A DNA stretch of 64,000 nucleotides from Heterotrichella gracilis. Its lineage: Eukaryota; Sar; Xanthophyceae; Tribonematales; Xanthonemataceae. Of the stretch, positions 255-53,496 are shown in pieces. Both the position numbers and the translations under genes were made by a program. Where the stretch lies: NCBI GenBank assembly GCA_032358255.1, contig JAULBX010017081.1:1-64000 (forward strand), given 5' to 3'. Every line of letters starts with the position of its first letter. Within the stretch, counting starts at the first letter, position 1. Below the pieces are notes generated by a model. It saw only the letters and a program-made list of their open reading frames with translations. It did not search any database and had not been told where the DNA came from.

Positions 255-3200
255 CTTGGTAGCAAAGGCGCTCCTGTAGCCCCAGAACTCCACATCCAGC
301 AGCTCCCCAGATACCTGGTGCTGCGCAGATCTTACGTGCTCCCCGCCACAGCCCCCATCCACGTACACACAGCTGAAGTTGCCCGTCGACAGGATCACCT
401 GCACGGTTGGCGGGGCAATGATCACATAGGCGATAAAATGCAATATTGTGGGGCAAAGTGATAAGCCTTGCGCAAGGCTGGCTGCTAACCTGGTAGTACT
501 ACTGGAAGGCATGTAAGTGTATTACTATTTATTTTGATTTTAAAAAAAAGCACTAATTTTAGTATTATTATTAATACTAGCCCGATGATCACCTGCACAG
601 CTGGCGTGCACTGATCCAACTCCTGCTGGAGCCTGGTGGCCTCAGCTCCAATGGGAGTAGTCGGTGACGGTGGCGGTGGCGCTGATGCTGAGAAGCCCGA
701 GAGGATGTCCCGGATCACGGCGATATGCGCGTTAGTGGCGCATGCGTCCAAGTGCTGGAGAGAGATGCTGAGATGCGCCTGGGTGGCCAGCTTGTCCTGC
801 AAAAGCACAAGAAACATGATCTAACAACTAATTGATTTGCCTAGCCTTTCACGCAGTTGTAATCGTACGTGGTAGTGCAATGTCTCCAGTGCCCCATGCC
901 ACAATGCTTAGGTTTTAGGGTTCAGCGGCATGACCAAACCTCTGGTAGCCTGCACAGGCCAGCGATGATCTGGCAGCTGGTTGGTTTCACCAGGCTCCAC
1001 TGGGCCATCGCAGGCACCTAGGGTTTAGGGTTCAGTCTTTAGGGTTTAGCGGCATGCCACGATACCCTACCTCTGGTAGCCTGCACAGGCCAGCAGTGAT
1101 CTGGCAGCTGGTTGGCTTCACCAGGCTCCACTGGGCCATGGCGGGCGCTGTTTCGCTGCCCAGGCTTAGCTGCAGCGCTGTGGCATTGATGCTGATGTGG
1201 TGGTACAGGTAGGCTTGGGCCAGCGCCTCCTCGTCGCCCACGGATGACAGCCCCGCCTGCACATACAAACAAATCAGCAGCTCATGAGTCATGACCCAAG
1301 CTCTTCTTATATTTCATGCGGCAGGGTTTGCCTGCATCTTACCATACCTAGCACTAAAACAAATGTTGTGGGGGTTGAGGTACACGTGCATCAACGCCTG
1401 TTCATTGCCAATGCATGCCTACCCCCCTCAAATTTAGCTTCCCACAGTCTGGTGGGGATGTTTGGTGAAATGTCATGTAAGGCCAGTGCACACCCACCTG
1501 AACTCGTTCCAGCAATGTATCCACGTCCGCATGCTTGCTGGGCTCTGGAGGCTGGATGGTAAGTCGGCCCAGGGTCAATATGACTGATTGGGCATCCACA
1601 TCTGCGCCTTGCGGGCGAAGAATGACCATCCCATCCTCCACCTAAAAGCAGCCAAGGTTTAGGGTTCGAATTTGCTGGTTGGTGCTGAACAATGTTGCAC
1701 ACTTGGACAAGTATATTTCAAGTCAAAAAGATCAGTACTGACCATGCGCATGTACACGCAGGGCTGTGCTGCTAAGGTGCAATCAGTGGCACAAACTCTA
1801 TCATGCCTGCGCAGTTTGCACTTGAGCCTAAGCTAAGTAGGGCGGTACCCTCCGTCCGCATGCCATTGGTGGAGCCAAATGTTAGCCAATGAGGAGGCTA
1901 AATCCAAGCTTGCAAAGCACAAACCTGAACGATGTACTGCAGCTGCGACGTCAGCGGCCCCAAGTACGAGACCTTCCCCAGCATCCTCCCTGGCGCGGTC
2001 TCCAGGTCATTTATCGCCGCCATCATGCGCGCCTCATGGGTGTCGGTTGGCAGATCGGAAATGAGAGCGCCCAACAGGCGAAGGCAGGGCAGCTGTACAA
2101 TGGCCTTCAGAGGTCTAATCACCACTCGCAGCCGTGCGCCTGTAGCAAGAAAACCCCTGTCATGACCAACCTTGTAAGACAACCATAAACCCAACACCCT
2201 AAACCCTAAATCCTACACTGCAAATCCTACACCCTAAACAGGAAACCATCCACATCCCCCACAATCACCCAACCATGGAAGACATGAAGGCATGAACAGC
2301 AACCGTAATAAGCTATTATCAAAGTCGTGGAAACATGCCGACAGGATGTGATGCAAGAGGTATGCTCACCTGAAGGGCGGGCATCTGAAGCTTGCCTCTG
2401 GGTGTACTGCGCCTTGATGATGGAACTAGTCACTGATGGTGATGACCGACCTGATACTTGCCCTGCATCACATGAGGTGTGAACCACCCCATCATTTTCA
2501 GATTGTAGAGGAAGAAACAAAGCGAGGGGCCAAAATGTATAGGTCCTGTGTTCCTGGCAAGCAAATGCTGCTATTGGCAACTCGTTGTGCCCTTTTGCTG
2601 GCAGGCAATTATTAGTGTGTATATATTTCCAATCAAGAATTACAAGGAAAAAGCCGTACGTTCATCCCAGCGCAAGAGCAGGCACTCTGTCACTCCAGGC
2701 CCATGGCTGCACAGGTCATGGGCATCCATATCCGCCACCGTCATGGTGACTTCAGTGCTCCCATACTGGTGGTTCCCATCCACCCGCAGGTCGTTCAGTT
2801 GCAAGGACATGATTGGCTGAGGCGCGTCAAGCTTGGTGGTGTGTACAGTCAGTGCTGCGTTTGATAACTGCAACAAGAGCAAACAGTGAATAGTTTCATG
2901 ATTTAATTACATGCCATGTGATGAATACAATCACTCAATGGTGAAAGTACATTTTGGAGACTGCATATGGTCCATGCATACGAATGCATGCACAATCTCG
3001 CATTTGTAATGCATTTAAAACGAGGCGTTGACACCAACACATTGACAAGATGTAGAAAGTATTCTATGTTCAAATCCAATGTTGATGTAGGAATAAATAC
3101 ACTTACCCGGACCAGCAAGGCCAGCTGTATGCTCTTTGGTGGTTGGTGCACATCCACATCAGCCTCCGAATCAAAGTCAAGGACATCGTACAGCTCCTGT

Positions 3201-6200
3201 ATGTCTGTCTCTGAGGGAGCGCGAGACAGCGAGCTTGCGCTCGTGGGCTCATAGCCCAGGTCATCGGCAACGCTGTACAGCCCCCAAGCAAACCAGCCCT
3301 TCTTCCTGTGATTACAGAGAGCAGTCAGTTCAGGTGTCATGACTCCAACCCCTCGGCCGCCAAACTGCAATTTAAAGGCATTTAGCACCAACTTCAATTG
3401 GATCAATGTTAGAGGTTGATGCAAGGAAGTACCTTGAAGTCTCAGCCTCCCCAGCCCCTCCCGCTGCCCCTCCAGACTGCTCCATGTGCTTCTCCAAAGC
3501 CTTCTCTGCCAGGGACCTGAACAGCAGGATGTCTGCAATGTCCAGCTCCTCCTCCAATGAATGCAGCTCCTGCTGATCCTTGGGATCCTGCATAAAAAAA
3601 ATGTGCATCAGTACTGTCTACATGAGAATACTAGTCTTTTATGGATGACACCCACCAGTCCTTCATGCAGTCATGTGACAAGGACCACCCATGCATCATG
3701 CAGTCTTCTAATGAGAACCTTCAGTTCCTGATTCTGTCTTCTGAAACATAAACACAAAGTAATTCGTGCTTCCTAACCCACAACTCAAATGCATGGTCAC
3801 TCAGGAATGCATGTACGTACTGTGTTAGCTGTGTTTGCTAGTGCCTCCAGACCGGGCCATACCGAACCCACCACCTCAACTCCTTGCCAAACTGCAATTG
3901 CTGGGATGCATGTCACGTGCTGTCCACCAGACTACTCACCTGCTTTGCAGCAGAGGATGGCCCCTTTTGCAGCAGCTGGAGCTTGCGTTCGTACAGCGCT
4001 ATGTACCACCTTCGCTTGTGCCTCCAGGTGGCCCAGGACTTCCTGTTGCCGGTGCCCAGCCAAGACTGCTGTGTGCTGTGAAGGTCAGCAACCACCGACT
4101 TGATGGCGTACTGCCACACTTTCCTGCAAAACAGAACACACAAATCACCTTTACAATCACAGCCACAACAGCTTTAGGGTGTAGGGTGTAGGGTTGCTCC
4201 GTGCCCAGCCATGACTGTTGCGTACTGCTACACTTTCCTGCAAAACAGCACACAGGTAACCTAGGGGCCATCCTCTGCTGCAAAACAGGTGAGCAGTCTG
4301 GTGCATAGCACGTTTGATGTATCCCAGCAAATGCACCGCAGTATGAATGCAACGATGGATACCGTGTTGGGATTTACATATCTTCATTTACCTTAGATCC
4401 CTTGACCATACTGGAGACTGTTTGTTCAATGAATGAGGATGGCATGAGGATAAAGCCGCATGCACAGTCAAAGTAGGGTTTATCATTTTAGGTTCTGCAG
4501 AGCCAGAATTGCGCCCTCACCGCCATGGCCATGACCCTGAGCGGCATGCACCTCAGGGTTTAGGGTTTTAAGGTCGCGCGCTCACCGCCAGGACACCGCC
4601 GCCGTCCCCGAGCGCCAGCCGTTGGGCCGCAGGTGTGCGTATTTGCAGCGGATGGCGTTGGTGGTGATGGTGTCCGCAAGCGTTGCCAGCGGGGCCAGCT
4701 GCTGCTTGCGCACGTCCATCTGGATGTCCCTGACCACAACCGCTGCACTGATCCTGACCTGGGGCTCGTGCCCCACCGCCCCCCTGTTGCTGAACATCTT
4801 GAGCCGCAGGCCGCCCCCCACCGGCCGCAGCATGTCCCACCCCTCGCCGCCACCGCCACCACCAACACCAACACCGCCACCACCACCGCCGCCAACACCA
4901 TCTCCAATGCCACCACTGCCGTCACTGGCTGCGTGTTCCGAGGTGGGTCCTGGGTTGCAGTACAGCGACAGGCCCTCCAGCAATAGCACCTTGCCCATCA
5001 CATGCACCTGCGGGGGAGACAGGGTTGAGCACATGGAGCAGATTGCATGAAGCCAACAAGCGCCCAAAGCAGTGGAATGCATGAAGCTGCGGCAATCGCT
5101 GCATGCACGGATTCACATAATTTTATGTAAATGCCGCGGGTGCCCACCACAGGCATGAGGCAGAAAACTCCAAAAACAAACCCATGGATGAGCCGTAGGG
5201 AAGCGTACCCGCTTGCTATCCGAAGCGCTCTCCGTGCGGTCAGGGACATCCCAAAAGAGGTCCATAGCCCTGGGATCCGCCTCTGGGACTGTCTGCATGA
5301 GCGCCAATCGCACACCCACTTCCATGCCCGCCGCTGAGGTAGATACATCGTCCTGCACGATGGCACGAGGACATCAGAAGCAGTCATTCACAGCAGCCTT
5401 GCTTAGTTTTGCACTAAATGGGATGCGCTCGGCAGTCAAACCTTGTATATTAAAAAAGGAGCCTGGAATTGCACCTGCATGTCCTGAACGAGCTGAAGAT
5501 TAATGAGCAGGATGGCGGTCATGCGTGACAGGGAGGACAACCACAGCCCTGGCTTGCCCTTGCCAGAGATAGCTTTTTTCCATACGGGTACGCAGCTTGC
5601 ACGATCAAAACCCTAAAACCTAAACTGTAAACCCTAAACCTTGCACAAGACTGCACCTGGGACTGCACACCATGTACACATCGTGCACGTCCTTGATGGT
5701 CCCCACTACTCAGGGTTTTCGCTCAGCCCAAAACCCTAGCACCTTAACCCTAAACCCCAAATGACTGCACCTGGAACTGCACGTGCACGTCCTTGATGGT
5801 CAGCTGCAGCTTGTTGAGCAGAATGGTGGCCAGGCGCGATATGATTGACCACCACAGCCCTGGCTTGCCCTCCCCGGGACTGGCCTTTTCAGACGCCAGG
5901 CGCTGAGAAAGCTTTTCCAGCTCCGCCGCAGCAAGCTTGGCCTGTTTGGAGTGCTTCTGGCGGGTTGCTGCGGGCCCCTCCTCCAGGTCGCTTTCTGATT
6001 GGTGGGTGATGAGCACGCGCACGTTGGAGAGTTCCACCACGATTGGCTGGCTGCCGAGGTTGCGCCATGGCACCTGAATGGGTATGGTGTTTAGGGTTTA
6101 GGGTTTCTGGTTAGGGTTCAGCGTTGCGCCAGGTGCCTGTACAGATAAATAGGAACAGGATCCAGAGTAGCGGTCGGCCTTGCAACAGCATCTGCCACTC

Positions 6201-7508: not shown

Positions 7509-10500
7509 ATGCACTGGAAACGTACGAAAACTCCCAACTTGGACGGTGACAAGGAGGATGGGCAACCAATGCCCCCGGAACCAGCACTGCAGCAACAGGA
7601 CCGTCCAGGTTTGACAGCGCGTATCACGGGGTGGTTGCGAGGGAGCAGCCCTGGATCTCAAGGATCAAGCTCCCAAGCCAGTGGGAAAACATGGGCCAAC
7701 AACTTCCTCAACCTGCCAGGTAAGCACCAACAGTTTGCACATGCATGCATATGGAAAGCCGTGGGTGAAAACGGATCCATCTCGGGTTTGTGCCATCAGC
7801 GGCTCGTGAATACGAGTATTTTACTTCGACACGTCTTCCTGAGTGCCAGTTGCTGAAACTTAACGTGGTGGCAAGCAAGTTGGCAACCTTGTGGGGCCAG
7901 TGTGCCGACCCCAAGAACGGCTTCCAAGCTGGGTTCCCCACCGGCTTGTGACCTATCGTTATGGTGGAGATAGACCCAACCTAGCGTTGGCAGTGGTGTT
8001 GTCGTCCAGATATACCCATCTGCTTGTCTGCCTGCCTGAGGAACAGCACAGACTGGGTGCAAATGTTGCACTGTCAACTGTTTGGCCTCAGGGAACGAAC
8101 TCACGGGTGCCAGCAGTGCTTTCAAAAGCGTGGCCAACTGCTCCCCGCCAAAACCTTGCCCCCCGATTGGTCTATTGACCCCCCACACTGTCAACTGCTT
8201 GACTTCAAGGAATGCCCTGACCGGTGCCACCGGCGCCTTCACAAGGGTCTATGAAACCCTAAATCCCAACTTTGCTGCTTGCACAGGAAACGCACTCACG
8301 GGTGCCACCGGGGCCTTCAAGAAGCTCACCGGCAAGGAAAAGTGGCAGAGCTACGAGGAAGCCAAGGTCAAGCTGGAGGCCAAAGCTGCGGGCGCCTGTG
8401 GCCAAGCCAGGCTGGAGCTCCTCTCAGGCTGGTGTGCTGCTCTCAAAGAGCTCGCACCTGTGGGGAGCATAGTCTCCTCGCTCCCCCAAACCAGCTGCCA
8501 GAGGGACGCTGAGTGGCTGCTCATCTCCCCCACTGGGGGCAAGAGGGTGGAGTGCCTGCTGAACCAGGAGCACGGGCAAAAGGTAGGTCAGCCTGCAATG
8601 GCTTTGGGATCACCGTTCAGCCGCCTGCACAACCAGCCACATAGGCACACAGCTACCTACACTGCCACCTATACTGCCACCTTCGGGCTACCCACCTTCA
8701 CCTATGTGACCACCAGCCACACGCCCCACATACTTACACTGACCGCCTGACACACGCCTATATTATACAATGCCCGCCTGACACATGAGAAGGGCAGCGT
8801 GTGTGCAGGAGGTAGGATCGTGAACCCCTAAAACCTAATTGCAAACTGCAGCGGCCTGCGTGCAGGAGGTGGCGACGCTGTCCTAAACCACAACCCCTGC
8901 ATTCTAAACCCTAAAACCCTAACTTTTGCGCGCGGTGGCCTGTGTGCAGGAGGTTGAGACGCTGTACATGGACGTCTATGGGGAGCCAATGTCCTTCAGG
9001 GACGTCTTCTTGTCCAGCAAGGCCCTGGAAAACACTGTGAAAGGTAGGCGCCACCAACCACCACACCGCTGAGCACATGCATATGTGCACCTCCTTCATG
9101 TGGCCAATTTGGGTTATAACACCTCTGCACTGGTAGGCTGCCTTCCATTGAATCCTAAATCCTGTACCTAACTTGGAGCTGTTTTTTGCCCAACCACGAA
9201 CACTTTGATAAATGTATAAGTACAGTTGCAAGGGATCTTTAGGGGGGATACAACCCTAGGATACCCCCTTCATGCACCCTTGCTCATGCACTGGGAAATG
9301 CTGCAGGCTACATCCAGAACCCAGCTGAAACCGAGGAGGAGGAGGAGTTGTGCTACGCGCTGCTTCGCCTGTGCCTCACCGCGGGCGATGAGGTCATCCT
9401 GCAGCTGGTGAACGTCATCAGCCGACTGTCGTGCTCAGCAGCGCACCACAAGGAGCATGTGCTCATGTCCAGCGAGGCCATGCTGGCAAAGGTAAAATGC
9501 CATAAATATTTCATATCTCCAGAGGTGTGGGAGGGGGATATCCTACAATAAATCCTGAGCGCAGTAGCGTGTGTGGAAATGATAAACCTTAAGCGGGCGA
9601 CGAGGTCATCCTGCAGCTGGTGAACGTCATCAGCTGCCTGTCGTGCTCAGCAGCGCGCCCCAAGGAACACGTGCTCATGTCCAGCGAGGCAATGCTGGCA
9701 AAGGTATAAAATAAAATTCCTCTTTCTAACCCAAGGTTGCAGCTGGTGGATACCCTTAATCCTAAAGCAGTTGAGCGCATGTCAAGCTCAGCAGCGCACA
9801 ACAAGGAGCATGTGATGACGTCAAGCGAGGCCATGCTGGCACAGGTGTGCACTTAACCCTTAGTGTTGACATTGCTTAATCCTGTGAGGAAGTTTGCCTC
9901 CTCATAACTGTGAGGAAAGTGCCCTCCTCATATGTATACCATCCTTGGTTTGGCAGGTGTGCTCAGCAGTGAGCGCGCTCAAGTCGAGCGCTGAGGCTGA
10001 GATGCTTGACAGGAGGGCGTGCATCCTGAAGCAGGCAATCGAGGACAAGCTCCAGGGCCTTGCATCGGATGCTTGCCCGGAGCTTGATCAAGCAGATCTG
10101 GCTTCCCAGACCCCGGGGGCTGAGCTGTTGGAGCAGCAGCTTGACAGCACATTCACGGTGAGCTCAGGAAAATGCGTGAAAAGGAGATGAGTATTAATTA
10201 TTCACAGACTAAGCATTATATTTAATTAATTTGTGCACATTCTCGGTGAGCGTGGGGAAACTGCGTACAAAGAAATGATTAATTAATCGTTAACAGAAAA
10301 TGATCAATTCTTCATCATCAATATTACGTGCATGCCAGCACATTCACAGTGAGCTGGGTACACTTGTACACTTGCATGACCCTGTATTAGCGCGTCCAAA
10401 AAATTGCATGCATCAGGGGTGACGTCATTGTCAGTGGCTTGGGTGGGCAGGAGGCATGTCAGCTTACCTCATACCAACTGCCCCAAACACCCCACGGACG

Positions 10501-13500
10501 TATTCTCTTAATTCGTACATAAAAACAGCCGCACATCAATTAATTGACTTCCGCTGCAGATCGTCAAGTTGTGTGCCCAGCTGCAAAGCCTGGTGGCCCA
10601 GCGCGCTGCCCTAGTGGAAGGCGAGCAGGCCAACTTCTCAGCCGCAATTGCATGCAACCTTAGCACATACAGTACACCCCACGCCCTAATAATCCTGAAC
10701 CCAAACCCTGTATTTCACATAAACTGGTTATGTGTTTCCGCTGCAGATTGTTGAGTTGTGTGCCCAGCTGCAAAGCTTGGTGGCTCAGCGCGCTGCCCTG
10801 GTGGAAGGCGAGCAGGCCAACTTCTCAGCCGCAATTGCTGACCTGGTGCAGTGCAAGGAGGGCCTGGCCACTGCCGCGCTGTCCATTGAGCAGAAGATGC
10901 GTGACACGCAGGTGGAGCGCGAGAAGGGCGACGTGTTCAAAGGTAGGTTGTTGTCTGTTTATTATTTACGGTTGACGGTTTAGGGTCCAGGTCAACACCA
11001 AATCTAAAAAACGTATGCACGATCGTCGCCAGTCGCTGTCCTGTACCAATCTTCCAGCCATGCATGATCTATTATCGCCCTTGCGATTCATGTGCTTCAG
11101 CAAGTCCTCAATGGCGCATGCAGTTCGGAGGTTGGAGGAGATGAGCGTCAAGCTTTCAGCTGCCGCTGCTGACGTGCAGAGGCTTCAGGCAAAGAAGGCC
11201 CTGCTGGAGGCTGAGCTTGCTGATGTCACCGCAGAGTATCAGAGGGCGATGGCCAAGCAGGTGCGCACGACATGCACGCATTTGTGTAAAGGGTTAGCAT
11301 GTTAGCAATACAGCCGGAGTAGCACTTTGCTTATTGTAATGCATTATGCCCTGCTAGAGGCGGAGCTGGCTGGCGTCACTGCAGGGTTTCAGTGGGCGAT
11401 GGCCAAGCAGGTGGATGCGGCATGCGCGCACTTCGTGCCGGTGTTGATAAGGCACCATGCAAGCACTTGCCATGCTGGTATTTGGTCCAAAATGATGGCA
11501 CTGTGCATGTACCATTGTTTGATGTTTTGGCTTTGCAGGGCACTTGGTATCCACTGTCACCGCTAATGACATGGTGCCCTGCCAGTATTGACAAACGCTG
11601 CATGATGCAAACAATGTTAGGAAGCCATCAATGATGGTGCATGCGGATCCCAAGGATGCTGAGCATTCATGTTGTGGCTGTTGCAGGCTGATGTTGAGGA
11701 GAGCAGGAATGTGTTTGAGGAGGGGAGCGCGTTCACATTGGACGCACTTCTCTGCCAGCAGGTAGGATGGTGTTTTGTGTCATGCTTCACTGTTGCATTC
11801 CTTAGCTTTCTTGTTACCACCTCTGTATACACTACATGGAGGGGGAGGGGGGAAGGGATGCAATTCACCGTATGCTGTATGCTGTATGCTGTATGCAAAT
11901 ATCCTGACCCCCACCTCCATACTATGCTAAGTATACCCTTAACATACCATAGGAGGAGCTGACGGCTGCCCATGGCCGCCACGTGGCTGAAGCCGCCGCC
12001 ATCAGCGACTGCAGACAGCTCATGGAGATTGCCTCACGAGGGTAAGCCAAGTTTGTTGCATGTGGAGGAGGGCCATTCCCTGCCCCACTTCAAAACCCTA
12101 TCCGAAACCATATCCCATTATTTCTGAAGAAGGGGTGGGAGGGGGGAGGTCGGTGCAGCGCCATGGGTAGATCCCCTGCCATGCCATGCACCACAGGAGT
12201 GTTCAGTGTTTAGGGTTTTAAGGTCCCACTCTTGCACCCTGCAGGTACGCCAAGAAGGTTGCGTGCAAGCTAGACTTTGGGCTTTAGGCTTTAGGGTTTA
12301 GGGGAATTCTAGGGTTTGAGGTTCTGCTCTGGCACCCCGCAGGTATGCCAAGAAGGTCGCGTGCGAGCGCGAGTTTGTGCACCAGCTGCAGCACACCATG
12401 TGCCACGACTACGTGGCTGCAGCCACGCACCATTGCAGGTGGCAGCAGGCGCAGCTTGTGCTGCTGCTCAGGCAGCTGCAGTTCTGCACAGCGGAGTTGG
12501 ACGGTGGGTGCCATGATGATGATAAATTAAAAATACATTAAACGTAAATAATTAAATAAATGATTATAATAAATAATAAAATGCCATTGGCAGCAGGTGC
12601 AGCTGCTGCTGCTGCTGAGGCAGCTGCAGTTCTGCACAGCGGAGCTGGACGGTGGGTGCCATAGTATTTAGAGTATTAGAGGGTATTAAATCACCAATAA
12701 TAAATGGGAATTGTCGTGCTTCGGCAGCATAATAACAATGAATATACATTGTCATTGGCAGCAGGCAGTAACATCTGCTGTTGGTGCTAGTGCACTTCTG
12801 CACAGCGGTGCTGGACGGTGAGTTTAGCAACAACAAGGGTGTTGCATAACGAAACCAATTCCCAGCTGATATTCCCAGCTAATTAGCGTAACAAAATATA
12901 TTCCCAGCTTCTCAGCCAGGCAATGGATTCATTTGACACCGATCAGCGCTACGAGATGCGAGACAACAGCTGTGCGCACACCTGCATTGCATGACAAGTG
13001 TCATGGAAAATTGGTGGTTGACGCCCATTCCCCACCTGCGCAGGCTTGAAGGGCAAGGATGTGCGGCTGGCAGCGATCGGCATGGGCAGCATGATGGCTG
13101 ACGTGAGTACCAACCGGCAGCAGCTTCAGAACAAGTACCTGCAGGCTGAGCTGGCTTTCTACTCCCACCTCAAGCAGGTGGCTGCCATCCGGAGCTCGCT
13201 TGACATCATACTTGCCAAGGGCAGCCCCGCCAGCAAGGGCAACGCAGTGCACACGGTGAGTGGGTCCATCAAATCCACAAACCTCAGAAATAGATAAGTG
13301 TTTACAATGATCAAATTTGGGTTTATGATGGGGGTAAGAATGGGGTCATGCGCATGCTTATATATATATTTTTTTCCTGTCCAAGAAAGATTTCCATCAG
13401 GAGCTTGCTTGGGATCATTTTTCCCAAGGGGAGCTTCACCAGCAAGGGCAGCACAACTCAAATGGTGAGGCTTTCACCGGGTGATCAAATGCAAGCTATG

Positions 13501-16910: not shown

Positions 16911-19900
16911 TTATACCTTGACCCACAGTCTGAACAGGTAATCGTTGGCCGGCTCCGAGCTGTATCCCAACCAATAGCCATTCCCAGGAATGACATTAGA
17001 GCAGTAGGAGAAGGCACCGCTGTAGGTTGATGTCCTCACCAACTTCCATGCATACATCTGGCCAGCTTGGATGGGGGCGGAGGTGCCGGCCATGGTGTAG
17101 GACACCCTGCAAGCATATGGGCGGAGCTGTTAGTGGGCAACATGCATACGCAACTTCAAGGATAATTGTTTAGCCTTCATTATGCCTGTTTGTATTACAA
17201 CTGCCTAGCCGTGGAATGGCAAGGGCAATTTGACCTCCAATGGTTCCCTGCAGGAAATGTGGGTCATTCCTTGAATGCCACATTTACAACATCCAAGACC
17301 ATGCATCTGTGAATGGCATCAGCCACATGCTCAGTATTGCATGCAACTGCGCGGCATGCACCCATGCCCCACGCACCATGCTGCTGATGCTGAGCTCTGG
17401 TTGGGGACATTCACCACCCCCGAGGTGGCCACCAGGGCTCCATCGGGGCTGTCAAGATGCAGCTCCAGCTGGTAGGAGGTGACGTAGTACAGGTTAGGCT
17501 TGATCCACACATCAATCTTGTCCACATACAGGTTGGCCAGGGTGCTGAGCGGGGTGAAGGTCTGGCCAATGGCGCTGTTGATGGCAATGTTGCTAGTCGG
17601 GGAGCCGCAGCTGACGGCCACATCCAACCCTGCACAGGTACGCACACACACAGTCTGTATAAGGGTCTAGGATTTAGGGTGGCGGTGGTGCAGGACACGA
17701 CCCCATCCAACCCTGCACAGGCGCAAGCACACAGTCACTCCCTTGTCATTGGCTGCCAGAGAATGCATATGCCGCTGCTTGATCATTCGGCTGGTTGCAC
17801 TAATGGGCTGCCTGTGCACATGATTTAGGGTTTGGGGCTAGGATTTAGGGTTGCACTGTTGGCTGCATATGCTGCACATGCTGTAGGCGGAAGGGGACAA
17901 TGGTAAGGAAACCACTACAGGGATCATGGTACGCATGACACCTCATCAAGTGGGTGTAGATGTACAATACAAGCCTTGTCTGAAAAATTGCGGTATGTGC
18001 TCACAACACCTGACCAAAAATGATCCTACATCGTTCTGTGGATGTACCTGCGCAGTACTACTGTGACAGATCCACCCCTAAAAACGATTTTTATTACATC
18101 AATGATGTATTTTTACTGTATTTCTCCATTTGCATAAAATCTGTCCAGTCTTCAAACCCAATGACCACAGCGATTTTGGCTCAAAAGTGTGCACCAAGTA
18201 TTTGGCAAATCCCAATATAATAATCCCCAGGGCGAACACTCAAAAATCCAAAAAAAGCTGTTATGGAAGACCCGCATGAACATTTTTAGTTTAGTTACAA
18301 TGGGACGCAAGCCATATCTAAGACATCCACAGGGAAATGGGGACAGGCTGACTCACCTAGAACCACTTTGGTCCACAGCCTGAACAGGTAATCCCTGTCC
18401 GGCTCCGAGCTGGTCCCCAGCCAGTAGCCATTCCCGGGGATGACATTGGAGCAGTAGGAAAAGCCACCGCTGTAGGTGGATGTCTTCACCAGCTTCCAGG
18501 CATACATCTTGCCAGCTTGGACGGGGGCGTAGGTGTCGGGGATGGTGAAAGTCACCCTGCAAGCACATGGATGGCGTTGTTAGGGTTCAAGCGGCATATT
18601 CTCATCTTAAAAGACAACTTCCTAGCCTTCATAATGCCTGCTCCTGTAACAACTGCCTAGGTATGGAATGGCAATAGCAGTATGTACCTCCAATGCCCTT
18701 GCCATTAGTTCCCAGCACTAATGATGGGTAACTTTCTTGGACGCTTACAACATCCAGCACCATCTGTGGATAGGACCACCCATATATTGACATTGTACAT
18801 GACTGCACCCATGCCCCACCACCCACCATGCCGCTGAGGATGGGCTCTCATTGGGGAGTACATTCATCACCCCCGAGGTGGCCACCAGCGCCCCTCCAGG
18901 GCTGTCAAGATGCAGCTCCAGCTTGTAGGAAGTATTGTAGTAGAGGTCAGGCTTAATCCACACATCGATCTTGTCCACAAACAGATTGGCCAGGGTGCTG
19001 AGCGGGGTGAAGGTTTGGCCAATGGCATCGTTGATGGCAACGGTAGATGGGCCGGCACAGGAGACGGCCACATCCAGCCCTGCACAGGCACACACACATA
19101 CATTGTCACTCATTTTATGAGGTGCCACGGAATATGGGGTGCTAGTCTGGTGGTTACGTGCGAAATAAAACACGTCAAAAGGATGAAGAACAGAAACAAC
19201 CATGACGCCGATGTGCATATGCCATGTATACACATGTATGTTATAGGCGCAGACAAAGCAAAATGTGAGCAGATGTAACAATACCCTGATAGGTTGACAT
19301 CAATATGAGGGCATCTACCGAGACGGATCACACAATACCTTTGGTGCCATGTGCATAGGACACATGGCTAATTTTAAGCAACGGCATTCATGAGCAAAAG
19401 AATCACAATCAGTGTACGCATGTATACAATCCTAGCCTTGAATGGTTAGCTTCCAATTACGCAATATTGCAAGGAGGAGTACCTAAAATGGCTTGTTATA
19501 GAAGGGTTTGCTCACCTGCTGGGAGAGGCGCTGGGGGTGACGGAGGGGAGAAAGGAGGTGATGGTGGGGTAGGAGGAGGGGGGTTTGGAGGGGGTGGCGG
19601 TGGGAATGGGCTTGGTGGGGGTAGCACCGCCTTGGTCCACAGCCTGAACAGGTAATCATTGGCCGGCTCCGAGCTGTATCCCAACCAGTAACCATTCCCG
19701 GGGATGACATTGGAGCAATAGGAGAAGGCTCCGCTGGAGGCGGATGTCCTAACCAGCTTCCATGCATACATCTGGCCAGTGTGGATGGGGGCGGAGGTGC
19801 CGGCCAAGGTGAAAGACACCCTGCAAGCACATGGATGGAGCTGTCAGGGGTTCAACACGAGGAAGTCCTAGGACCATTTTTAAATATCCTATTATATAGG

Positions 19901-38608: not shown

Positions 38609-41600
38609 TCAAAGCTGTTTCCTGTCCGGCCCCCCCTCCTCGACCTTGACCGGCAGCAAGGGGGGTACAGGACTGTCTGGGGAGTGGTAGCGCCACAGCA
38701 GGGTGGCTGCTCGCCCCCCCATGAGCAGCGCCAGGGCCAGCCACACCCCTTGCAGACCCATGCCCGTGCCCTCCACCCCCAGGAGCGCGGCTACAGTGGC
38801 GGTGGCAGCCAGCAGCATGGCACCTGGGACAGGGGAAATGGGGCGAATTAGGGTTTTAGACTAGGGGTTCTGCACATGAGGTTTTGAACAGCATTTATGG
38901 CGCAATGGTGCGAATGGGACTGGGGTTTCACATTCCGGCATGTGGTGGCTTTATGAGCTCTAATCTTGATATAGATTGCCCGGGGGAGAGAAACCAATGC
39001 CACCTTTCAATGCCGGTACCGACAGGCTCCAAGACCGCCATCCCAACCCACCTACCACGCACTTGAAGTGCAATGCCCCTACCATCCAGCACAAAAAAAC
39101 TGCATGTGACCACTACCCAGGCAGCATTGGTCACCGTCAGCAGCAGGCAGCAGAAAAATACCCCATCCTCCACCACCACTACCACAGCCACCACCACCAC
39201 CAACCACCTGCCACAACAATTGACGTCAGACGCACCCACCAGCACCCCATCCAGCACATAGACCACAGCATTCACCGCCACCCTGGCCATCACTAGCGGC
39301 AACAGCAACAACACATCTCATCCTCCACCACCACCACCAAGCCACCACCACCACCACCCACCTGCCAGGAACTTGAAGTCCGAGGCCCCAACCAGCACCC
39401 CATCCAGCACATACACCACCGCGTTCACCGGCAGCATCGCCACCGCCAGCGGCAGCAGCGAAAACACCATCGCATCCACCGCGGCATCGTCCGTGAAAAT
39501 GGTGGGGATCAGCGGCGCAGCCGCCGCGTAGCCCAGCGCCAGCGCCACACCCATGGCTACCCCCAACTCAAGGAGTCGGTCCGAGACTGCGCGTGCGCGG
39601 TCGGGGCGGCCCTGGCCGAGGTTGGCGGCCACGAGGGTTTGGCCGGAGATGGCGAGGGAGTCGACCACCATGGAGGAGAGCAGCCACAGCTGCATGAGGA
39701 TCTGGTGGCTGCCCGCAGGGACCGCACCCAGCCTGCAAGAAATAAGTTCTTCAGTGTTTAGGGTACTGCGGGGAAGGGTGGCATTGCCAAGTGGAAGCAG
39801 TGTGCGGGGCAAAATGCTTGGTATGGGTTTAGGGTGTAGGGTTTAGGTGAGGGAGTCCACCACCATGGAGGAGAGCAGCCACAACTGCATGAGGATCTGG
39901 TGGCTGCCGGCGGGGACCGCACCCAGCCTGCAGGCAGATGTAAGGGTTTAATGCTCAGGCCATTGTGCGACGAAGAGGGGTGCAGTGCCAGGGGGTTGGG
40001 TGTGGGAAAGGGTGGGAGGGTGTGTGTGGGTACTATGCATAGGGGGTAGGCAAGCCACTCAGCCACACAGGCGGTCAGCAGCAAGGCTAGGGTTTTCGCA
40101 CCTTGTGGCGGTGGCCGCAGCTAGGGTTTTCGTCCCCAGCAGGAGCGCGGTGCGCATGAGGACAGCCCCCCCTGCCTTGAGCAGCGGCGCATACTCCTCG
40201 TATAGCTTGTCCAGTTGGACCGATGGCGGGGGCCACATCACTGCGCGAGCCATGGGTGCGGCTTAGGGTTTGCTACGTAGGTACAGGGTATAGGGTTTAG
40301 GGTTTAAGGTGAACAGAGGTTGGGGTCACGTCGCTTTGACAGCCAGGCGTGGTAATTCAATTTGGGCATGGTAGTTCAATTTGCAAAATGTGCAGCCCAC
40401 AGTGCGAGGGTGATGCCGCACAAACCCCAAACCCTACACCCTACACCAAGAACCCTACAATTCTACACGCCAATTTGCTCCTGCTTTGCCTAAGATGAGC
40501 ATACCGTCCCGTGTGCATGCCTGCAACGCACGATGCACACCAAAACCCTAAACCCTAAACCCTACAACTCAACGCACCTATTTGCTCCTGCTTGGTGGTC
40601 AGGATGGCCAGATAGGCAATGGCAGCCACCCACTCGGCAGTGGTGGTGGCGATGGCGGCGCCGTTGGGCCCGTACCCCCACCCAAAGATGAGCAGGCAGT
40701 CGAGTGCCAGGTTGATCAGGTTGGCGCCCACGGTGATGTAGAGCGGCGTGCGCATGTCTGAAAGCCCCCGGAACAAGCCCTGGCCTACTGTCATGAGGAG
40801 CACCGCGGGCGCCGCTATCGCCCTGCATGGGGAGTACAGAGAATCACATTTTAGCAGGCAGGGCTAGGGTGTTGAGCAGATACAAGTCCTGCCCACATAC
40901 AGGGGTACACTGCGTCAACCCTTTAGGGTTTAGGGTTTAGGGTCAAGCTCATGTCCGACAGATCCCGGAACAGGCCCTGGCCTACCGTCATGAGGAGTAC
41001 CGCGGGAGCCGCTATCGCCCTGCATGGAAAGGGCATACGGTTTAGGGTTGTGCACGTCTGACTGCTAATCTGGCTGAATTGCTGGAATGCATATAACCAA
41101 CTAACTAACATAACCAAACGGTTCCGCGGCTTATCAGACATGCGCATGCTTAGACCCTAAACCAAACCCTAAACCCTAACAGGGTGGGCGTTTATGGGCA
41201 GAACTTGTAACCTGCGCAGCAAACTCGCCCCGCTTGCTGACTCTGACTGTAAAAGGCAACCTAGTATATCCTTGTGGAACATCTCTTGGTAACACACTCC
41301 TTGCCTGTATTGGAGGCATTTCCGGGACCCTGGTGCAGACCGCATGCACCCACACCCCGAACCCCGAATCATAGACCCTACACCCCTTGCCAGTACTGCT
41401 TGTACTCTGCCTGCAGACCTCCCCGTCCCCACCACTACCCCCACACCCCCACGCCCTCAACCCTACATCCCCCCTTGCCTGTATTGGAGGAACTCCAGGG
41501 ACACTTCGTGCAGGCTGCCTGTCTCCACCCCCGCCCCCATCAAGCTCAGCGCGCCATCCGCCCAAAATGTGAGGGCTCCCGTCAGGCCAAACCCCAACAC

Positions 41601-47100: not shown

Positions 47101-50100
47101 GGTGGTTTGGCGAGGAGACTGCCACGCGGTCACCAGGGAACGCAGGCTGTTGATGCCATGTGCATTTGGTCAGGGTCATGACGCCGGTTTATATTATGTT
47201 GAATCTCAAAATCCTACCAAGATATGCACAGCAACCCGTGTAGCCCTGTGCGCACCGCGCATCACAGGTCCATTGCCTACAGTCCCCCTCTCTGCAACAA
47301 TCGCAAACCACTTGCAAGCCAACACCGGCTGTCCAATATGAGGAAGAAAATAACCAACAAGAAAAGTTAAATCTACACAATGGTTAAAATTATACTACAT
47401 CTCTAAAACAAACGCGACTGATATAGACTCAGACAAGTCCCCTTCATCCTCGTGAGGCCATTTTGGCCATATCCACCTCGTATTAGATGGTATTAGATGG
47501 TACTAAATGGCATTAAATGGCCCATCCCCGCAGGTCCTCACCGCCAATGGATTCTCTAATAGTTGTTTTAGTAATGAAGTCCATTAAGATGTGATTTCAT
47601 TTGCAAATGCAGGTGCTCACAGCCAACGGATTCTCCTCCAAGATGCGCAGCCTGACGGACGCCACGGGCGCCTCCAACGCCATCGTGCGCCGCAAGCGGG
47701 AGGAGCGGGAGCGGCGCCTGGCTGCCGCCACTGGGCGCCTGGTCACTGCCTGGTTGCTGGCTGCCGCGTGCTTTGTGGGCCACATGTCTCACATGTGGGC
47801 GGGCATGCCCATGTGGCTGCACTGCATGGGCCACACGCCCGTCAGTGCGTCATTGTCCGCCATCGCGCTGCTAGGTGGGTGAGGGCGGGAATTTTGTGGC
47901 ATTAGTCAATAAGAAAATCCATTAATTTCGGTCACCGGCCGAGTAGGGATGGCCTGGTTGTAGTGTGCTTTGTGGACCATATGTCTCACATGTGGGCGGG
48001 TAAGCCCATGTGGCTGCACTGCATGGGGCACACGCCGGTCAGCGCGTCTCTCTCCGCCATCACGCTTCTTAGTGGGTGGGTGCGGGCGGGATGTTTGTGA
48101 CAAATATCAGGGAAATTCATTAGTTGCGGCCACCGGTCGAGTAGAGATGGCCTGGTTGTAGTGTGTTTTGTGGGCCACGTGTCTCAACACTGCCACACAC
48201 CCACCCCCCATCCCACACCCCGCAGGCCCCGGCCGAGAAATCCTAACGGAGGGTTTCCAAGCCCTGCGCATGCGCCAACCAGACATGAACAGCCTGGTAG
48301 GCCTGGGCGCCACCGCTGCGTTTGGGGTATCGACGGTAGCTGCGTTGCTTCCCGGGCTGGGTTGGACCACCTTTTTCGAGGAGCCCGCCATGCTGCTAGG
48401 GTTTGTGCTGGTGGGGCGGGCGCTGGAGGAGCGGGCCAAGCTGCAGGCGTCGGCGGATATGGTGGCGCTGCAGGTAAGGTGGCCTTCAATGGTGTTTATG
48501 GGCCAGGGACATTTTCTTGGCCATTTGTTTCAGTACAGAATTTTAACTCTGCTGCAAGGAATTGTTTGTCGCACCTTGTAACCCATCCTTATGGTCTCGT
48601 CACCCTATGTTAGGGTAATTATTGACACACTGTAAACCCTACCGTAGGGTCTCCTCCCCGCGCGCGCCCGCCTGCTGCTCAAGGACGAGGAATGGCGGGA
48701 GGTGCCCTCCGAGGCCATCAGTCCCGGGGATTTGCTGGTGGTGCTGCCCGGGGACAGGATTCCTGTGGATGGCCTGGTGGTGAATGGGCGCAGCTCGGTG
48801 GATGAGTCGACACTCACTGGGGAGCCGCTCCCCGTCAACAAATTTGAAGGTGAGGTTGCCAAAAGGTTGAAAAAGGTGACCAATATAGAAATAGAAATAG
48901 AATAATAATGTGACCAGTATATGTAGTATTGTGGATACCAGTCCCGGGGATTTGCTGGTGGTGCTGCCCGGGGATTTCTGTGGACGGCCTGGTGGTGAAT
49001 GGGCGCAGCTCGGTGGATGAGTCCACACTCACTGGAGAGCCGCTCCCTGTCAACAAATTCGAAGGTGAGGGCAGCAGAAGGGGCCACAAAGCTGACCAGG
49101 AATTGTTACATGGAATTCATGGGTACCAGTGTGGGGGGTTTGCTGGTGGTCCTGAGGGATTGTATCATGTGCATGGCCTGGTGGTGGTTAGGGCCACCAC
49201 CGTAATTACCCAAACCCCAAGCAACTCACCACAGAAACCCCACACAAAAACACCACAAAGACAATCCACTGACCTACAAATTCCCACGCCAGGCCACAAG
49301 GTAGCCGCAGGCAGCGTCAACTACGACGGCAGGCTCACCGTGCCGGCCGAAGCTGCGGGCAATGCCACCGCCATACCCTAATTCCTATATTGTCTTAATC
49401 CCTAAACCCTAAACCGCCACCGCCATAGCCGACATTGTGCGCATAGTGGAACCACTTTGCCCCCTTGCAAATCACCACTGCAACTATACAAAAAACCCTA
49501 CAAAAACCCTACACAAGCCAGTCCACTGACCCATAATCCCTCGCCAGGCCACAAGGTAGCCGCAGGCAGCGTCAACTACGACGGCAGGCTCACCGTGCGG
49601 GCCGAGGCAGCGGGCAACGCCACCGCCATTGCAGACATTGTGCGCATGGTGGAGACCGCACAGGCCCGCACCGCGCCTGTGCAGCGGCTGGCGGATCAGA
49701 TCGCGGGGCGGTTTGCATACGGTGTGATGGGGGTTTCGGGGGTCACGTTTGCGTTCTGGGCCACGATCGGGACCAAGCTTTTCCCTCAGGTGAGGGGCTG
49801 GGGGGGTTTTGAGGTGGTGGTGGGGGAAATGTGTGGAGGGGCGGATGAGCGGGATTGTTGTGGTGGTGTGTGGGATGTAGAGTGTGCAGCGGTTTGCTTG
49901 CCAGATCATTGAGCGGTTTGCATATGGCGTGATGGGGGTTTTGGGGGTGACGTCTGCATTCTGGGCAACCATTGGGACCAAGCTGTTCCCTCAGGTGCGG
50001 GACTGGGGCAGTTGAGCGTGTGATGGGGGAGTGGTGTGGAGTCTTGGGGTGGTGGTGGGGGGTGGGGGGTGTGGTCGCGCAGTAACGGGCGGCAGGATTG

Positions 50101-53100
50101 CGGGGCGACTTGCAGTGAGCATTGTAACTTTCAAGCAAACGGACAAAAGGATGTAGTGGAAAAAGAGTACAAACAGAAGAATGTTAGGGTTAAAACAAGC
50201 ATTGTTTCATTATCATTTAAAGGAAGGAGCCATCAGGAGAAGTATACCATTAAACTATTATTTCCCTTGAGAGTAGTTGTCACTGAATAAGCCCATTCCC
50301 CGCAGGTGTTGAGTGCGGGCGCGGGCAGCGGCGCGGCGGTGTTGCTGGGCCTGCAGCTTGCATGTAACGTGCTGGTGGTGGCCTGCCCCTGCGCGCTGGG
50401 GCTTGCGGCACCCACTGCGGTACTGGTGGGAACTTCGGCGGCTGCGCGGAGGGGGCTGTTGATACGGTGAGAGGAAATGGGGAGGGGAGAGGTTGTTGTT
50501 CACCCAATGTTATTATATCATGTTTATCATGATTTGGTTACGATTAGTTTCCACCCACCAGCCCAGGTGAGCTTGGAATGATGGGAAAAGCCAATGCAGA
50601 GAGCCATCATTACCCCGAGAAACCCAGACTGGCAAAGCCCCGTCCACACCCACTCATTGCCGAAGTCATATCCTCATGTGCTAATCCATCTCATTTGCAG
50701 AATCATCCCTTTCGATAATTTCTCACATGGAGACACCATCGTGTGTGACAAGGCCAGCACCCTAAACCCTAACCCAGCCCCTAAACCCTTGCGTGGTTCC
50801 CACAGGGGCGGCGACATTCTTGAAACCACCTCCCACATCGACACCATCGTGTTTGACAAGACCGGCACGCTGACTGTGGGTCGGCCCTTGGTCACGCGGG
50901 TAGCACCCATTCAGGCAGACATGAGCGAGCAGGATGTGCTGATGGTGGCTGCGGCGGTGGAGCGCCAGACCACGCACCCCATTGCGCGGGCTATTGTGGC
51001 GGCTGCGGACAGCGCAGGTGGGCTTCTTTTTGGCTTTGGGAGAGGGGGATTGGCTTGCGGGAGTGCAGAGTTGAGGGTTTAGGGTATGACACGCGTGGCA
51101 CCACTGCACTGTCTATTGTGGTGGCGCCGGGGAGCGCAGGTAGTGATGGGGCATGGGTGTGGGGGTGAAGGGGAAGTCAGGGAGTACAACGGGAGCCAGG
51201 CACCAGGGAAGGGGCTAAAGTACTCCGAATTAAACCTCTACATGTGCAAAAACAAATATAAACAGTTAGTATTAATTCAAAGGAAAGCGCCATCTCTTTG
51301 CCATAATCCCGACGCATTTGCAACTCTGTTTGCGCAGGCGGCCCCAGCCTGGCCATAGACCCCGACGAGGCCTTTCAACAGGAACCAGGCAGCGGAGTGC
51401 GCGCCAACGTGGGGCAGGTGGCGGTGGTGGTGGGTACTGCAGACTGGCTGCAGCGGCAGGGGGTGACCGGCACCCCCTCCACCCCCAACCAGGTGGACGC
51501 GCTACTGAAAACGCAGGGGGGGGGACGCAGGAGTGGGGGGTACAGCAGCGTGACGACGGTGTTTGTGGGGGTGGGGGGGCGGTGCGTGGGGGTGGTGGAG
51601 ATGGCGGACGAGGTGCGGGAAGGGGCTGCGGAAACTGTGGCGGGGCTGAGGAAGGCTGGCGTGGAGGTGGTGATGCTGTCAGGTGCGAATATTATGCGAT
51701 GGTGGTGGGGAGGAGGGGACAGGAGAGGGGGGATGTTGTGGGGGTGGTAGTGGTGACTTGGGTGGCTTTTGTGTGAGGGTGTAGGGTATTTTTGGGGCAA
51801 GGCTGCTGCTATATATAATCCCAACCCTGCACCTCGACCCCCATTTGCTGATAAACAAAATCCAAAAACCCTGGGTGGTGAAAGTCCTAAAACCTAACCC
51901 CTACACCCCACCCTCCACAGGCGATCAGGAGTCTTCAGCCCACATGATCGCGGCCGCGGTGGGTATCGACCCCCACCGGGTTCTAGCCAATGTCAAGCCA
52001 GCGGGCAAGGCTACTGCTATTTTACCCCAGACCCTATACCTCAACCCCCACCTGCTGCTAAACAAACGCCAACAACCCTGGTGGTCAAACCCTAAACCCT
52101 ACACCCCCCCCCACAGGCGACCAGGAGTCTTCAGCCCACATGATCGCAGCCGCAGTGGGTATCGACCCCCACCGGGTGCTTGCCAATGTCAAGCCAGCAG
52201 GCAAGGCTGCGGCAGTGGCTGCGCTACAGGCGGAGGGGCGGAGGGTGGCCATGGTTGGCGATGGGGTGAACGACGCGGCTGCGCTGGCGCAGGCGGACGT
52301 GGGGGTGGCGATGGGGGGAGGCGTGGATGCAGCGAGCGAGGTGGCTGATATTGTGCTGCTGGGGGACAGGATTCCGCAGGTGGGTGGTGGTGGTGGGTGG
52401 TGGTGGTGGGTGGGGGGGTGGATGGTCGGGTGTGGTGGTGTACGGATTGGTGATGGGGGGTAGGGTGGTTGCGGCATGACAAGGTGGCGGATGTCGTGCT
52501 GCTGGGCGACAGGATTCTACAGAGGTGGGTGGGATTGGGTGTTTGAATTTTGATAGCACTTAAACAGATAGGCAGGTGGGATTTATGTGGCAGGAGTGCT
52601 GGGAGTACGTGATATGGGCCTTTGCATACCCATGTACTACCAATTGTGAAAGCGCGTCTGGTTGCCAGGGCCTCCCGCCTCACCTGAACCCAAAACCCTT
52701 GCTTCCCCATCCATAGGTCCTGGATGTCACCCACATGTCCAAAGTCACCGTTGCCAAGACTTGGCAAAACCCTACAAAATACCCTCTCAATCCTCCCTTT
52801 CCACCCTCTTCATAGGTTCTAGATGCCATCCACATGTCCAAGGTAACATTTGCCAAGATCCGGCAAAACCTGATGTGGGCTTTCGCATACAACCTGGTGG
52901 GGATACCGCTGGCCGCCGGCGCCCTCCTCCCCAGCACCGGAATAGCGCTCACCCCCTCGATCTCGGGGGCTATGATGGGCATGTCATCGCTGGCTGTGAT
53001 GGCAAACTCGCTGCTACTGCGGCTGGAGGGGGGCAAGGGGGATGCGATAATGGGGGGAGAGAAAAAGGTGAGGGAGGCGGGTGGTGGGGGGGAATGATGG

Positions 53101-53496
53101 TGTGGTGGTGTTTTGGGTGGGGAGTTGGGGGCTATGATGGGCATGTCACCACTGGCTGTGTTAGCAAGGTCCCTGCTGCATGCGGGGGTAATGGGGGTGC
53201 GCGAAGGGGGGGGGAAGTTGTACGTGGGGGGCTGTGAATTGGTGCAAGGGGACTAAACACCGCGTACTTGCAGTGCGCTCACATCACATGCAGAAAATGC
53301 GATTTTACAAATGTTGTGGCCATATCCTGTTATAGGGGGTGTTGAATGTGTTTCTCCCTTCTTGCAGAAGGACCCCCCCCAGCAGGGTGGGTACCGCCAG
53401 ACAGTGGAGTACGACCTGGAGGCGCAACAGCCGCTCTTGCGCCAGCAGGCGCCACCTGGCGCGATGCCACAGGTGCTGCCGGCAGAGCAGCGCTGA
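44181..53496 (+). CDS. PAA2: Copper-transporting P1B-type ATPase, plastid PAA2-like (1001 aa)
   Basis: It pumps Cu+ across a membrane, in plants the thylakoid (PAA2) or envelope (PAA1). Exons: 44181-44685, 45063-45130, 45565-45681, 47613-47874, 48226-48473, 48648-48849, 49548-49789, 50306-50466, 50806-51017, 51338-51682, 52117-52379, 52816-53067 and 53368-53496; all phases agree. Residues 1-160 are Ser/Arg rich, then Gly rich: a transit peptide plus linker. One metal-binding domain follows ([14 protein letters not shown], about 166-179). Further marks are TGEP (about 457), the CPC ion motif in [10 protein letters not shown] (575-577), DKTGT (phosphorylated Asp619), TTHPIA (about 657) and GDGVND (about 835). 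VSGMxCGGCVxRV favours PAA2 over PAA1, but the choice is not certain. At least eight introns carry exon copies. Confidence 0.94.
45176..45395 (+). repeat. Two copies of copper ATPase exon 2 end in intron 2
   Basis: The word cgcatactggaggagcagac..ggtgaagcaggtg of the true exon end recurs at about 45189-45222 and 45361-45394, with CCCTAAA-type runs at 45145-45178, 45262-45275 and 45333-45346 between the copies. Confidence 0.9.
46230..46625 (+). repeat. Minisatellite in copper ATPase intron 3
   Basis: Units of about 42 bases (ggcatagcatgcgggcgtggcttgccatagacgg) repeat at least five times from 46340 to 46515, flanked by shorter ggcatagcctggcat(a)ggcagg units. The long open frames on the minus strand here come from the repeat and are not genes. 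Confidence 0.9.
47935..48190 (+). repeat. Copies of copper ATPase exon 4 end in intron 4
   Basis: Bases 47940-48085 repeat the [10 protein letters not shown]...[14 protein letters not shown] region and a gtgggtg donor-like end. A second partial copy (ggccaccggtcgag..gtgggccacgtgtctc) lies at 48125-48187. Confidence 0.88.
48938..49067 (+). repeat. Downstream copy of copper ATPase exon 6, with donor
   Basis: About 125 bases of exon 6 ([11 protein letters not shown], then [20 protein letters not shown]) are repeated with one deletion of about 6 bases and the same GAAG/GTGAGG donor. It still encodes the TGEP motif. Confidence 0.93.
49283..49450 (+). repeat. Upstream truncated copies of copper ATPase exon 7
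   Basis: Bases 49283-49376 carry the acceptor and the first 90 bases ([17 protein letters not shown]) nearly unchanged, then break into ccctaattcc. A second fragment at 49412-49450 picks up the next codons ([11 protein letters not shown]) after a taaaccctaaacc run, so the exon copy is split by the telomere-like sequence. Confidence 0.93.
49895..49996 (+). repeat. Downstream copy of copper ATPase exon 7 end
   Basis: It matches the [23 protein letters not shown] end of exon 7 with about a dozen changes and keeps a CAG/GTG donor. Confidence 0.9.
50690..50770 (+). repeat. Upstream decayed copy of copper ATPase exon 9 start
   Basis: Agacaccatcgtgtgtgacaaggccagcacc parallels gacaccatcgtgtttgacaagaccggcacg of the phosphorylation motif, and is followed at once by ctaaaccctaaccc. 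DKTGT has decayed to DKAST. Confidence 0.88.
51084..51146 (+). repeat. Downstream decayed copy of copper ATPase exon 9 end
   Basis: Cactgtctattgtggtggc..ggggagcgcaggta echoes the IVAAADSA codons and donor of the true exon end at 51017, after a gagggtttaggg run. Confidence 0.7.
51915..52014 (+). repeat. Upstream truncated copy of copper ATPase exon 11
   Basis: The acceptor and first about 95 bases ([20 protein letters not shown]) are duplicated almost exactly about 195 bases before the true exon. The copy stops at GKAT. Confidence 0.94.
52480..52776 (+). repeat. Copies of copper ATPase exon 11 end and exon 12 start within intron 11
   Basis: Bases 52480-52530 repeat [11 protein letters not shown]; bases 52708-52776 repeat the acceptor and [14 protein letters not shown] start of exon 12, ending in aaaaccctacaaaa. 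Confidence 0.88.
53110..53200 (+). repeat. Downstream copy of copper ATPase exon 12 end
   Basis: Gggggctatgatgggcatgtcaccactggctgtg repeats the [17 protein letters not shown] region of exon 12, then diverges. Confidence 0.88.

Follow-up and report, generated by a model that had tools for sequence, protein, structure and literature searches.

Introduction

Telomeric insertions with direct duplication of the target are known from rodents, primates and the horse, where target duplication is the minority outcome (6/130 rodent, 4/25 primate and 3/66 horse loci) and the mammalian interstitial insertions fall in introns as expected by chance, as described in PMC2246262 and PMC7215372. Small tandem duplications at breaks with 3' overhangs are reported to need CST-Pol alpha, a telomere complex (PMC8355091). 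In rice, patch-mediated duplications (Vaughn and Bennetzen 2014, as presented in PMC7407515) consist of 10-1000 bp insertions of tandem or partly tandem nearby DNA, with nicks on both strands. The present analysis concerns a stretch of 64,000 nucleotides (contig JAULBX010017081.1, positions 1 to 64,000, forward strand; hereafter the window) from the Heterotrichella gracilis assembly GCA_032358255.1, in which introns carry partial copies of the edges of neighbouring exons, many of them separated from the source exon by telomere-type heptamers (TTTAGGG/CCCTAAA). A preliminary description, made from the letters of the window, had drawn attention to these copies and proposed a repair route acting recurrently in introns.

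Results and discussion

Exon-edge copies in the window and in random loci

Partial exon-edge copies in introns are real and are not confined to the window. Within it, 37 exon edges carry 49 copies in six gene models, at least two genes being fused in one of these models; the initial count was at least 35 partial copies in seven genes. For comparison, 20 unbiased 10-kb loci (L031-L050) were taken from the same genome, a 68.5-Mb assembly of 903 contigs that includes the window. Three of these loci (L031, L042 and L046) have a bacterial look and were excluded from several counts, leaving 17 usable random loci, of which 11 contain copy pairs. Gene models were produced with a home-made hidden Markov model, first trained on two hand-spliced genes and subsequently on its own output, yielding 39 genes and 372 exons; they are purely predicted and at times label copies as exons, such pairs being flagged as ambiguous in the codon-position analysis below.

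Copies lying outside the exon and within 900 bp were found at 73 of 620 exon edges, 99 copies in total, and at 68 of 557 internal exon edges (approximately one in eight). When each intron was aligned against its own flanking exons, which had been suggested as a check, 23 of 325 introns contained a copy of the end of the preceding exon and 15 a copy of the start of the following one, while controls with inverted exons, swapped introns or shuffled introns gave 0 matches in the same 325. The copies are direct and local, as first noted. Window pairs less than 1 kb apart numbered 75 direct versus 3 inverted, a count that includes some purely telomeric pairs; with these removed and the distance limited to less than 500 bp the ratio was 68 to 2, and with heptamers masked and a distance below 600 bp it was 72:2 in the window and 53:0 in the 20 random loci. 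Copy-to-copy distance appears to have two modes, at about 100 and 200 bp (89 pairs from the window and random loci).

Decay of the copies and rejected origins

Differences between copy and source were distributed over the three codon positions as 117:95:207 in unambiguous pairs (147:125:270 with ambiguous pairs added), and 57 of 61 indels shift the reading frame, as expected of a neutral copy beside a constrained source. The copies are dead, neutrally decaying duplicates of constrained source exons, and functional duplicated or alternative exons were rejected on the same two counts. The state of the copies also bears on assembly artefact, in favour of which one pair of 99% identity (L034:5804/6020) adjoins a run of N. 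Copy identity is mostly well below that value (about 76-93% from the 10th to the 90th percentile), and this divergence, together with the frameshifts, the neutral codon pattern and the spread over many contigs, makes artefact a very improbable explanation.

Other origins were examined in turn. Sense matches crossed an exon-exon junction in 8 of 174 cases, while 78 stopped within 6 nt of the junction; seven of the eight crossing matches come from a tandem gene family in L038 and one from L049, where the predicted exons are themselves copies. Antisense matches numbered 57, of which 1 crossed a junction and 3 ended at one. Since the copies stop at exon junctions without continuing into the exon beyond, mature mRNA is not their source, and a processed retrocopy origin was rejected. 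Among fillers of 25-350 bp taken from 125 pairs, only 2 matched another sampled locus, the sampled loci representing less than 0.5% of the genome; with no filler family common to sampled loci, introner or transposon filler was likewise rejected. In the Rogers model, introns are said to be gained by tandem duplication of an exon segment, which leaves a repeat in register across donor and acceptor. No such repeat scoring 15 or more was found, and short in-register repeats were slightly in excess (10 with a score of at least 8 versus 3.3 expected). Intron gain of this type was rejected for lack of a bulk in-register signal.

Telomeric heptamers at copy boundaries

CCCTAAA is the chromosome-end repeat of this genome. 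Runs of (CCCTAAA)8 occur in 11 contigs; in six of these, with positions counted from the contig start, the run begins in the first 140 bp and in end orientation. Of 242 inner copy edges, 116 had a telomeric heptamer no more than 20 bp away, versus 3.95±2.4 (maximum 8) for 19 control heptamer classes of equal composition, 4 of 125 pairs having been dropped. Taken separately, the two inner edges carried a heptamer within this distance in 36 and 41 of the 72 window pairs, where rotation gave a null of about 5, and in 24 and 19 of the 53 random pairs, where the null was about 4. Outer edges were enriched more weakly (20 and 28 of the 72 window pairs, 11 and 15 of the 53 random pairs). The statement that heptamers commonly separate copy from source is borne out, with the correction that 23 of 72 gaps in the window and 19 of 53 in random loci lack an exact heptamer.

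Telomeric heptamers account for 3.18% of the bases in introns (controls 0.58±0.12), 0.30% in exons (controls 0.37) and 1.09% outside gene models (controls 0.60). Within introns, coverage was 7.9% at bases 6-40 past donors (controls 0.62), 3.84% at bases 40-5 preceding acceptors (controls 0.46) and 2.45% in mid-intron (controls 0.61), and in 117 of 314 introns a heptamer lies no more than 60 nt from one end or the other. Furthermore, heptamer density tracks the number of duplications across 17 loci (rho 0.73, p 0.0008). This correlation would also be expected from slippage or unequal exchange, in which pre-existing heptamer arrays at exon edges mispair or recombine and spread the exon edge as tandem units. 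Sequence comparison revealed two arrays of this appearance on the forward strand, one of approximately 110-bp units with heptamers (32924-33632) and one of approximately 86-bp exon-edge units with heptamer runs in a kinase-like gene (34198-34865), and one tandem pair (51795/52003) is free of filler. However, the gaps that lack an exact heptamer, and the many single-copy sites with heptamers on one side only, do not agree with such a process, which also leaves the arrival of heptamers at exon edges unaccounted for, and we regard it as rather unlikely.

Strand polarity was examined in the sample and genome-wide. Sense-strand heptamer bases in the sample were 519 C-rich versus 288 G-rich on the donor side and 357 versus 46 on the acceptor side. 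Genome-wide exact patterns after CAGGTGAG gave 240 G-rich versus 158 C-rich in sense, those before CTGCAGG gave 674 C-rich versus 297, and the control pattern upstream of CAGGTGAG had 47 matches. The donor side differs between the sample and the genome-wide counts, and heptamer polarity supports no particular mechanism.

Anchoring on exon edges

The events had been described as occurring in introns; instead, they are anchored on exon edges, with 73 of 99 copies reaching the exon edge or splice junction within 3 nt. Among 75 exon-overlapping pairs, obtained after removal of pairs with a period above 450 bp, pairs at 16.8-24.6 kb and near-duplicates, and with some edges counted repeatedly, 61 involve a donor or acceptor edge, 9 are internal and 5 cover whole exons. 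The initial view of a copy as one exon edge with its splice site and some intron is therefore correct as to the edge, but the intron portion is usually a few bases (median 8 in the 61 edge pairs). It amounts to 12 bases or fewer in 41 of the 61, versus 31.6% in simulation (p 1e-8, pairs not fully independent), and exceeds 100 bases in a minority of events (47757/47954, 51795/52003). Weak similarity extends past the aligned edge in 21 of 59 pairs (z above 3; partly via third copies), and some of the short intron shares may thus be decayed longer ones. Donor and acceptor edges are hit equally (36/276 and 32/281). Edges with and without copies showed no difference in exon GC content, exon length, adjacent intron length, CpG density or gene position, and a GC-driven exon bias was rejected on this ground.

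The tight intron share, the equal use of donors and acceptors and the location of events on transcribed exons, with none of the 53 random pairs intergenic, would be consistent with transcript-linked copying, in which nascent pre-mRNA or an R-loop sets a tract from the exon interior to the edge of the splicing-factor cover, perhaps with RNA as the template. The exclusion of mature mRNA, as well as the events that contain more than 100 intron bases, weigh against this hypothetical route, and we consider it unlikely.

Survivorship was addressed by simulating staggered breaks placed uniformly over random loci, with every exon-disrupting event purged. Exon-rich edge events made up 13% of the simulated outcome and intron-rich edge events 6%, with 47% falling in introns, 32% being intergenic and 2% complex, versus 45 exon-type, 8 intron and 0 intergenic among the observed random-locus pairs (n=53). 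Window pairs (38 exon, 32 intron, 2 intergenic) were closer to the uniform-break simulation, their high intron share being largely due to the array at 32.9-34.9 kb. Simple survivorship as simulated is insufficient for the clustering at exon edges. A different survivorship model might suppose that a pair of identical splice sites in competition does harm unless filler alters the surroundings of one of them. A purely survivorship-based account could add that splicing retains those scars of uniform breaks or telomeric insertions whose filler lets the right splice site win, e.g. C-rich filler before acceptors, and the strongly C-rich sense strand ahead of acceptors, both in the sample and genome-wide, is in agreement with this. 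Harmless intron-only events should nevertheless abound, and they make up 8 of the 53 random pairs versus the simulated 47%. Heptamers are, moreover, dense past donors as well, and donor polarity conflicts between the sample and genome-wide counts. Pure survivorship is quite unlikely.

Paralogous empty sites

A gene at 16911-23573 is built from five repeats of a two-exon unit and provides an internal set of empty and filled sites. Two duplications, and only these two events, could be compared with paralogous units that lack them. At 17656-17736 (reverse strand), filler and a copy (17697-17736) of the exon start at 17614-17655 are present, while units 2-5 are without the insertion in the paralogue alignment. 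At 22493-22612 (reverse strand), a copy (22493-22565) and telomeric filler adjoin the source edge at 22613-22684, while units 3 and 4 are without the insertion. The order in unit 5 is source edge, telomeric filler, copy, and the sequence past the copy resembles the start of the unit 4 intron; in unit 1, a short stretch of what lies upstream of the copy is shared with unit 2. Both flank similarities are short and were judged by eye. In these two cases the sequences fit an original intron flank that travelled with the copy, with the filler coming between. Since it is the sequence past the copy, and not that beside the real exon, which resembles the original intron, the arrangement points to a duplication with insertion at the junction and not to an exon fragment moved to a telomeric site. 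A telomeric insertion between two 11-bp GCCACCGCCAT repeats (49364-49426, forward strand), identified by eye, is by its sequence a smaller case of the same form.

Proposed mechanism

Direct orientation, the lack of filler families and the two paralogue comparisons fit a recurrent break-repair origin, as the preliminary description had supposed; the telomere-primed template switching that it named as one possible route is not supported, since in those two comparisons it is the sequence past the copy that resembles the original intron. With about even confidence, we propose that the copies are scars of staggered breaks across exon-intron junctions that were filled in and rejoined, often with telomeric filler. 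Nicks on opposite strands, separated by some tens of bases up to slightly more than a hundred, would span the exon-intron junction and leave complementary single-strand ends, both of which would be filled in, e.g. by CST-Pol alpha. The ends would then be rejoined with unique filler, often one to three telomeric heptamers that were presumably added by telomerase or captured, and the segment between the nicks would thereby be duplicated. As the gene would remain intact only if the splice site beside the complete exon works, the filler and one exon-edge copy would end up in the intron and decay neutrally. Telomerase may act on the break ends: the genome encodes a TERT domain (two matches, one contig) and Ku domains (on two contigs).

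Several points weigh against this proposal. Uniform breakage with purging underpredicts exon-edge events (13% expected versus 45 of 53 exon-type), and a staggered-break model leaves unexplained why the intron-side end hugs the splice site. Heptamers occur at the outer, splice-side copy edge in 21 of 61 pairs, a finding not expected from a single event; in the same pairs they occur at the source splice edge in 30 and at the inner copy edge in 24, and the background rate of a heptamer within 26 bp of a splice edge is 82/632. Repeated events at one edge could produce these outer heptamers. The polarity expected of telomerase (TTTAGGG past the left copy, CCCTAAA ahead of the right copy) fits 18 edges and fails at 16. 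Finally, copy plus filler exceeds the length of most duplications at experimental breaks.

A broader form of the staggered-break proposal would hold that staggered breaks recur at junctions in connection with transcription or splicing and are mended with telomeric DNA, and that introns are built up and renewed inward from exon edges by the accumulation of dead copies. We advance this tentatively, as a possibility of less than even weight. In its favour, greater similarity of the nearer of two copies at an edge was seen in 16 of 24 untied cases (the reverse in 8, with 2 further ties; not significant), and heptamer density drops from its peak inside donors toward mid-intron. Against it, introns beside copy-bearing edges are not longer (mean 301 versus 342 bp).

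Features along the window

In the VPS13-like gene, named for a Pfam match under Pfam's cut-off, three copies lie on the reverse strand: 938-1015, a copy of the exon edge at 1069-1146 with heptamers between (94% identity); 4220-4254, a copy of the edge at 4106-4140 with a heptamer between (94%); and 5462-5560, a copy of the edge at 5770-5871 (76%). On the forward strand, two copies (9593-9709 and 9780-9846, spanning 9593-9846) of the exon edge at 9381-9497 are 92% and 88% identical to it and are ambiguous, as the gene model has them as exons. Also on this strand, 10549-10651 copies the exon start at 10736-10838 including the acceptor (94%), and 13394-13469 copies the exon end at 13185-13260 (76%). 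The aldehyde dehydrogenase gene contains forward-strand copies of an exon start with its acceptor (28039-28106 from 28147-28216, 87%) and of an exon end with its donor (28463-28532 from 28266-28344, 80%). The MATE transporter gene contains two reverse-strand copies, at 39846-39932 from the exon edge at 39651-39737 with TTTAGGG between (94-95%) and at 40947-41027 from the exon start at 40750-40830 with (TTTAGGG)3 between (89%).

The remaining copies are all on the forward strand. In the P-type ATPase gene, 47954-48186 copies the exon end at 47757-47874 together with about 110 bp of intron (82%). Two copies (48939-49070 and 49134-49186, spanning 48939-49186) of the exon end at 48719-48855 are 92% and 79% identical, the first gap being without a heptamer. 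The segment at 49258-49374 copies the exon start at 49515-49629 and the intron end (91%), and 49883-50041 copies the exon end at 49678-49838 (80%). An intron end plus exon start (52003-52208) is copied without filler at 51795-52012 (83%). The last three are copies of the exon end at 52306-52387 (52448-52532, 79%), the exon start at 52795-52870 (52696-52771, 78%) and the exon end at 52965-53060 (53127-53215, 75%).

The kinase-like gene is interrupted by its heptamer array at 34198-34905, with no clear GT donor adjoining the left exon, and a unit near 34736-34787 reads through the gap, as though a formerly continuous exon had been divided by the array; this gene may be dead. Shortly downstream, the last approximately 100 bp of an intron (35126-35247) are part of a dispersed repeat, of which the genome contains at least 39 further copies at 80-89% identity. 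This repeat provides the acceptor in the window, while the matching stretches of L003 and L048 stop elsewhere than at a splice site. Another short dispersed repeat, of approximately 85-110 bp (56826-56908) is also present in L015 and L045, and five 49-bp tandem units at 57591-57829 each contain TTTAGGG-type sequence.

Proteins of Monoraphidium, Chromochloris, Tetradesmus and Coccomyxa share 66-68% identity with the aldehyde dehydrogenase, which places this genome among the green algae, and protein identities were 61-69% among the at least 120 matches listed. No match to the RuBisCO large subunit was found in the assembly. Across the window and 17 sampled loci, CpG is at 0.49-0.62 of expectation with TG and CA in excess, within exons and introns as well as between genes, which suggests cytosine methylation. 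The contigs of the three excluded loci (C1, of 894 kb, C100 and C180) have a GC content of 35-37%, longest open reading frames of 839-1259 amino acids and no algal gene model, and are for these reasons probably bacterial contigs within the assembly.

Significance and comparison with known systems

By placing source, filler and copy next to one another at so many internal exon edges, this genome would offer a readable record of intragenic break repair. With it, one could test for a role of telomerase or telomeric DNA in the routine interior repair of green algae, and ask if splice junctions are themselves prone to breakage or only determine the survival of scars. It also suggests a route of intron growth and turnover without transposons. 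Telomere-flanked exon-edge copies were not found in a literature search by titles and abstract openings, most subscription journals being outside its scope. The constituent parts are known repair outcomes; what is new is how often they occur, their link to telomeric repeats and, most of all, their tie to exon edges.

The Rogers model has in common with the present copies that exon sequence is duplicated and part of it turned into intron, and differs in the in-register signal, which is not seen in bulk here. Introners, as described in PMC9860276, likewise add intron sequence genome-wide; however, they form families of similar introns, whereas the fillers here are nearly all unique. Rice patch-mediated duplications, judged from their description in PMC7407515, resemble these events as local tandem-type duplications from nicks on two strands; the telomeric filler and exon anchoring seen here are not part of that description. 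In the staggered-break duplications that depend on CST-Pol alpha, as reported in PMC8355091, the segment between opposite nicks is also directly duplicated, while here telomeric-heptamer filler lies between the copies and the events are tied to exon edges. The mammalian interstitial telomeric sequences of PMC2246262 and PMC7215372, as characterized there, are also short internal runs of the genome's own end repeat, sometimes with random filler and a direct target duplication; in the present genome, by contrast, the duplication is common, and copies and heptamers are concentrated at exon edges.

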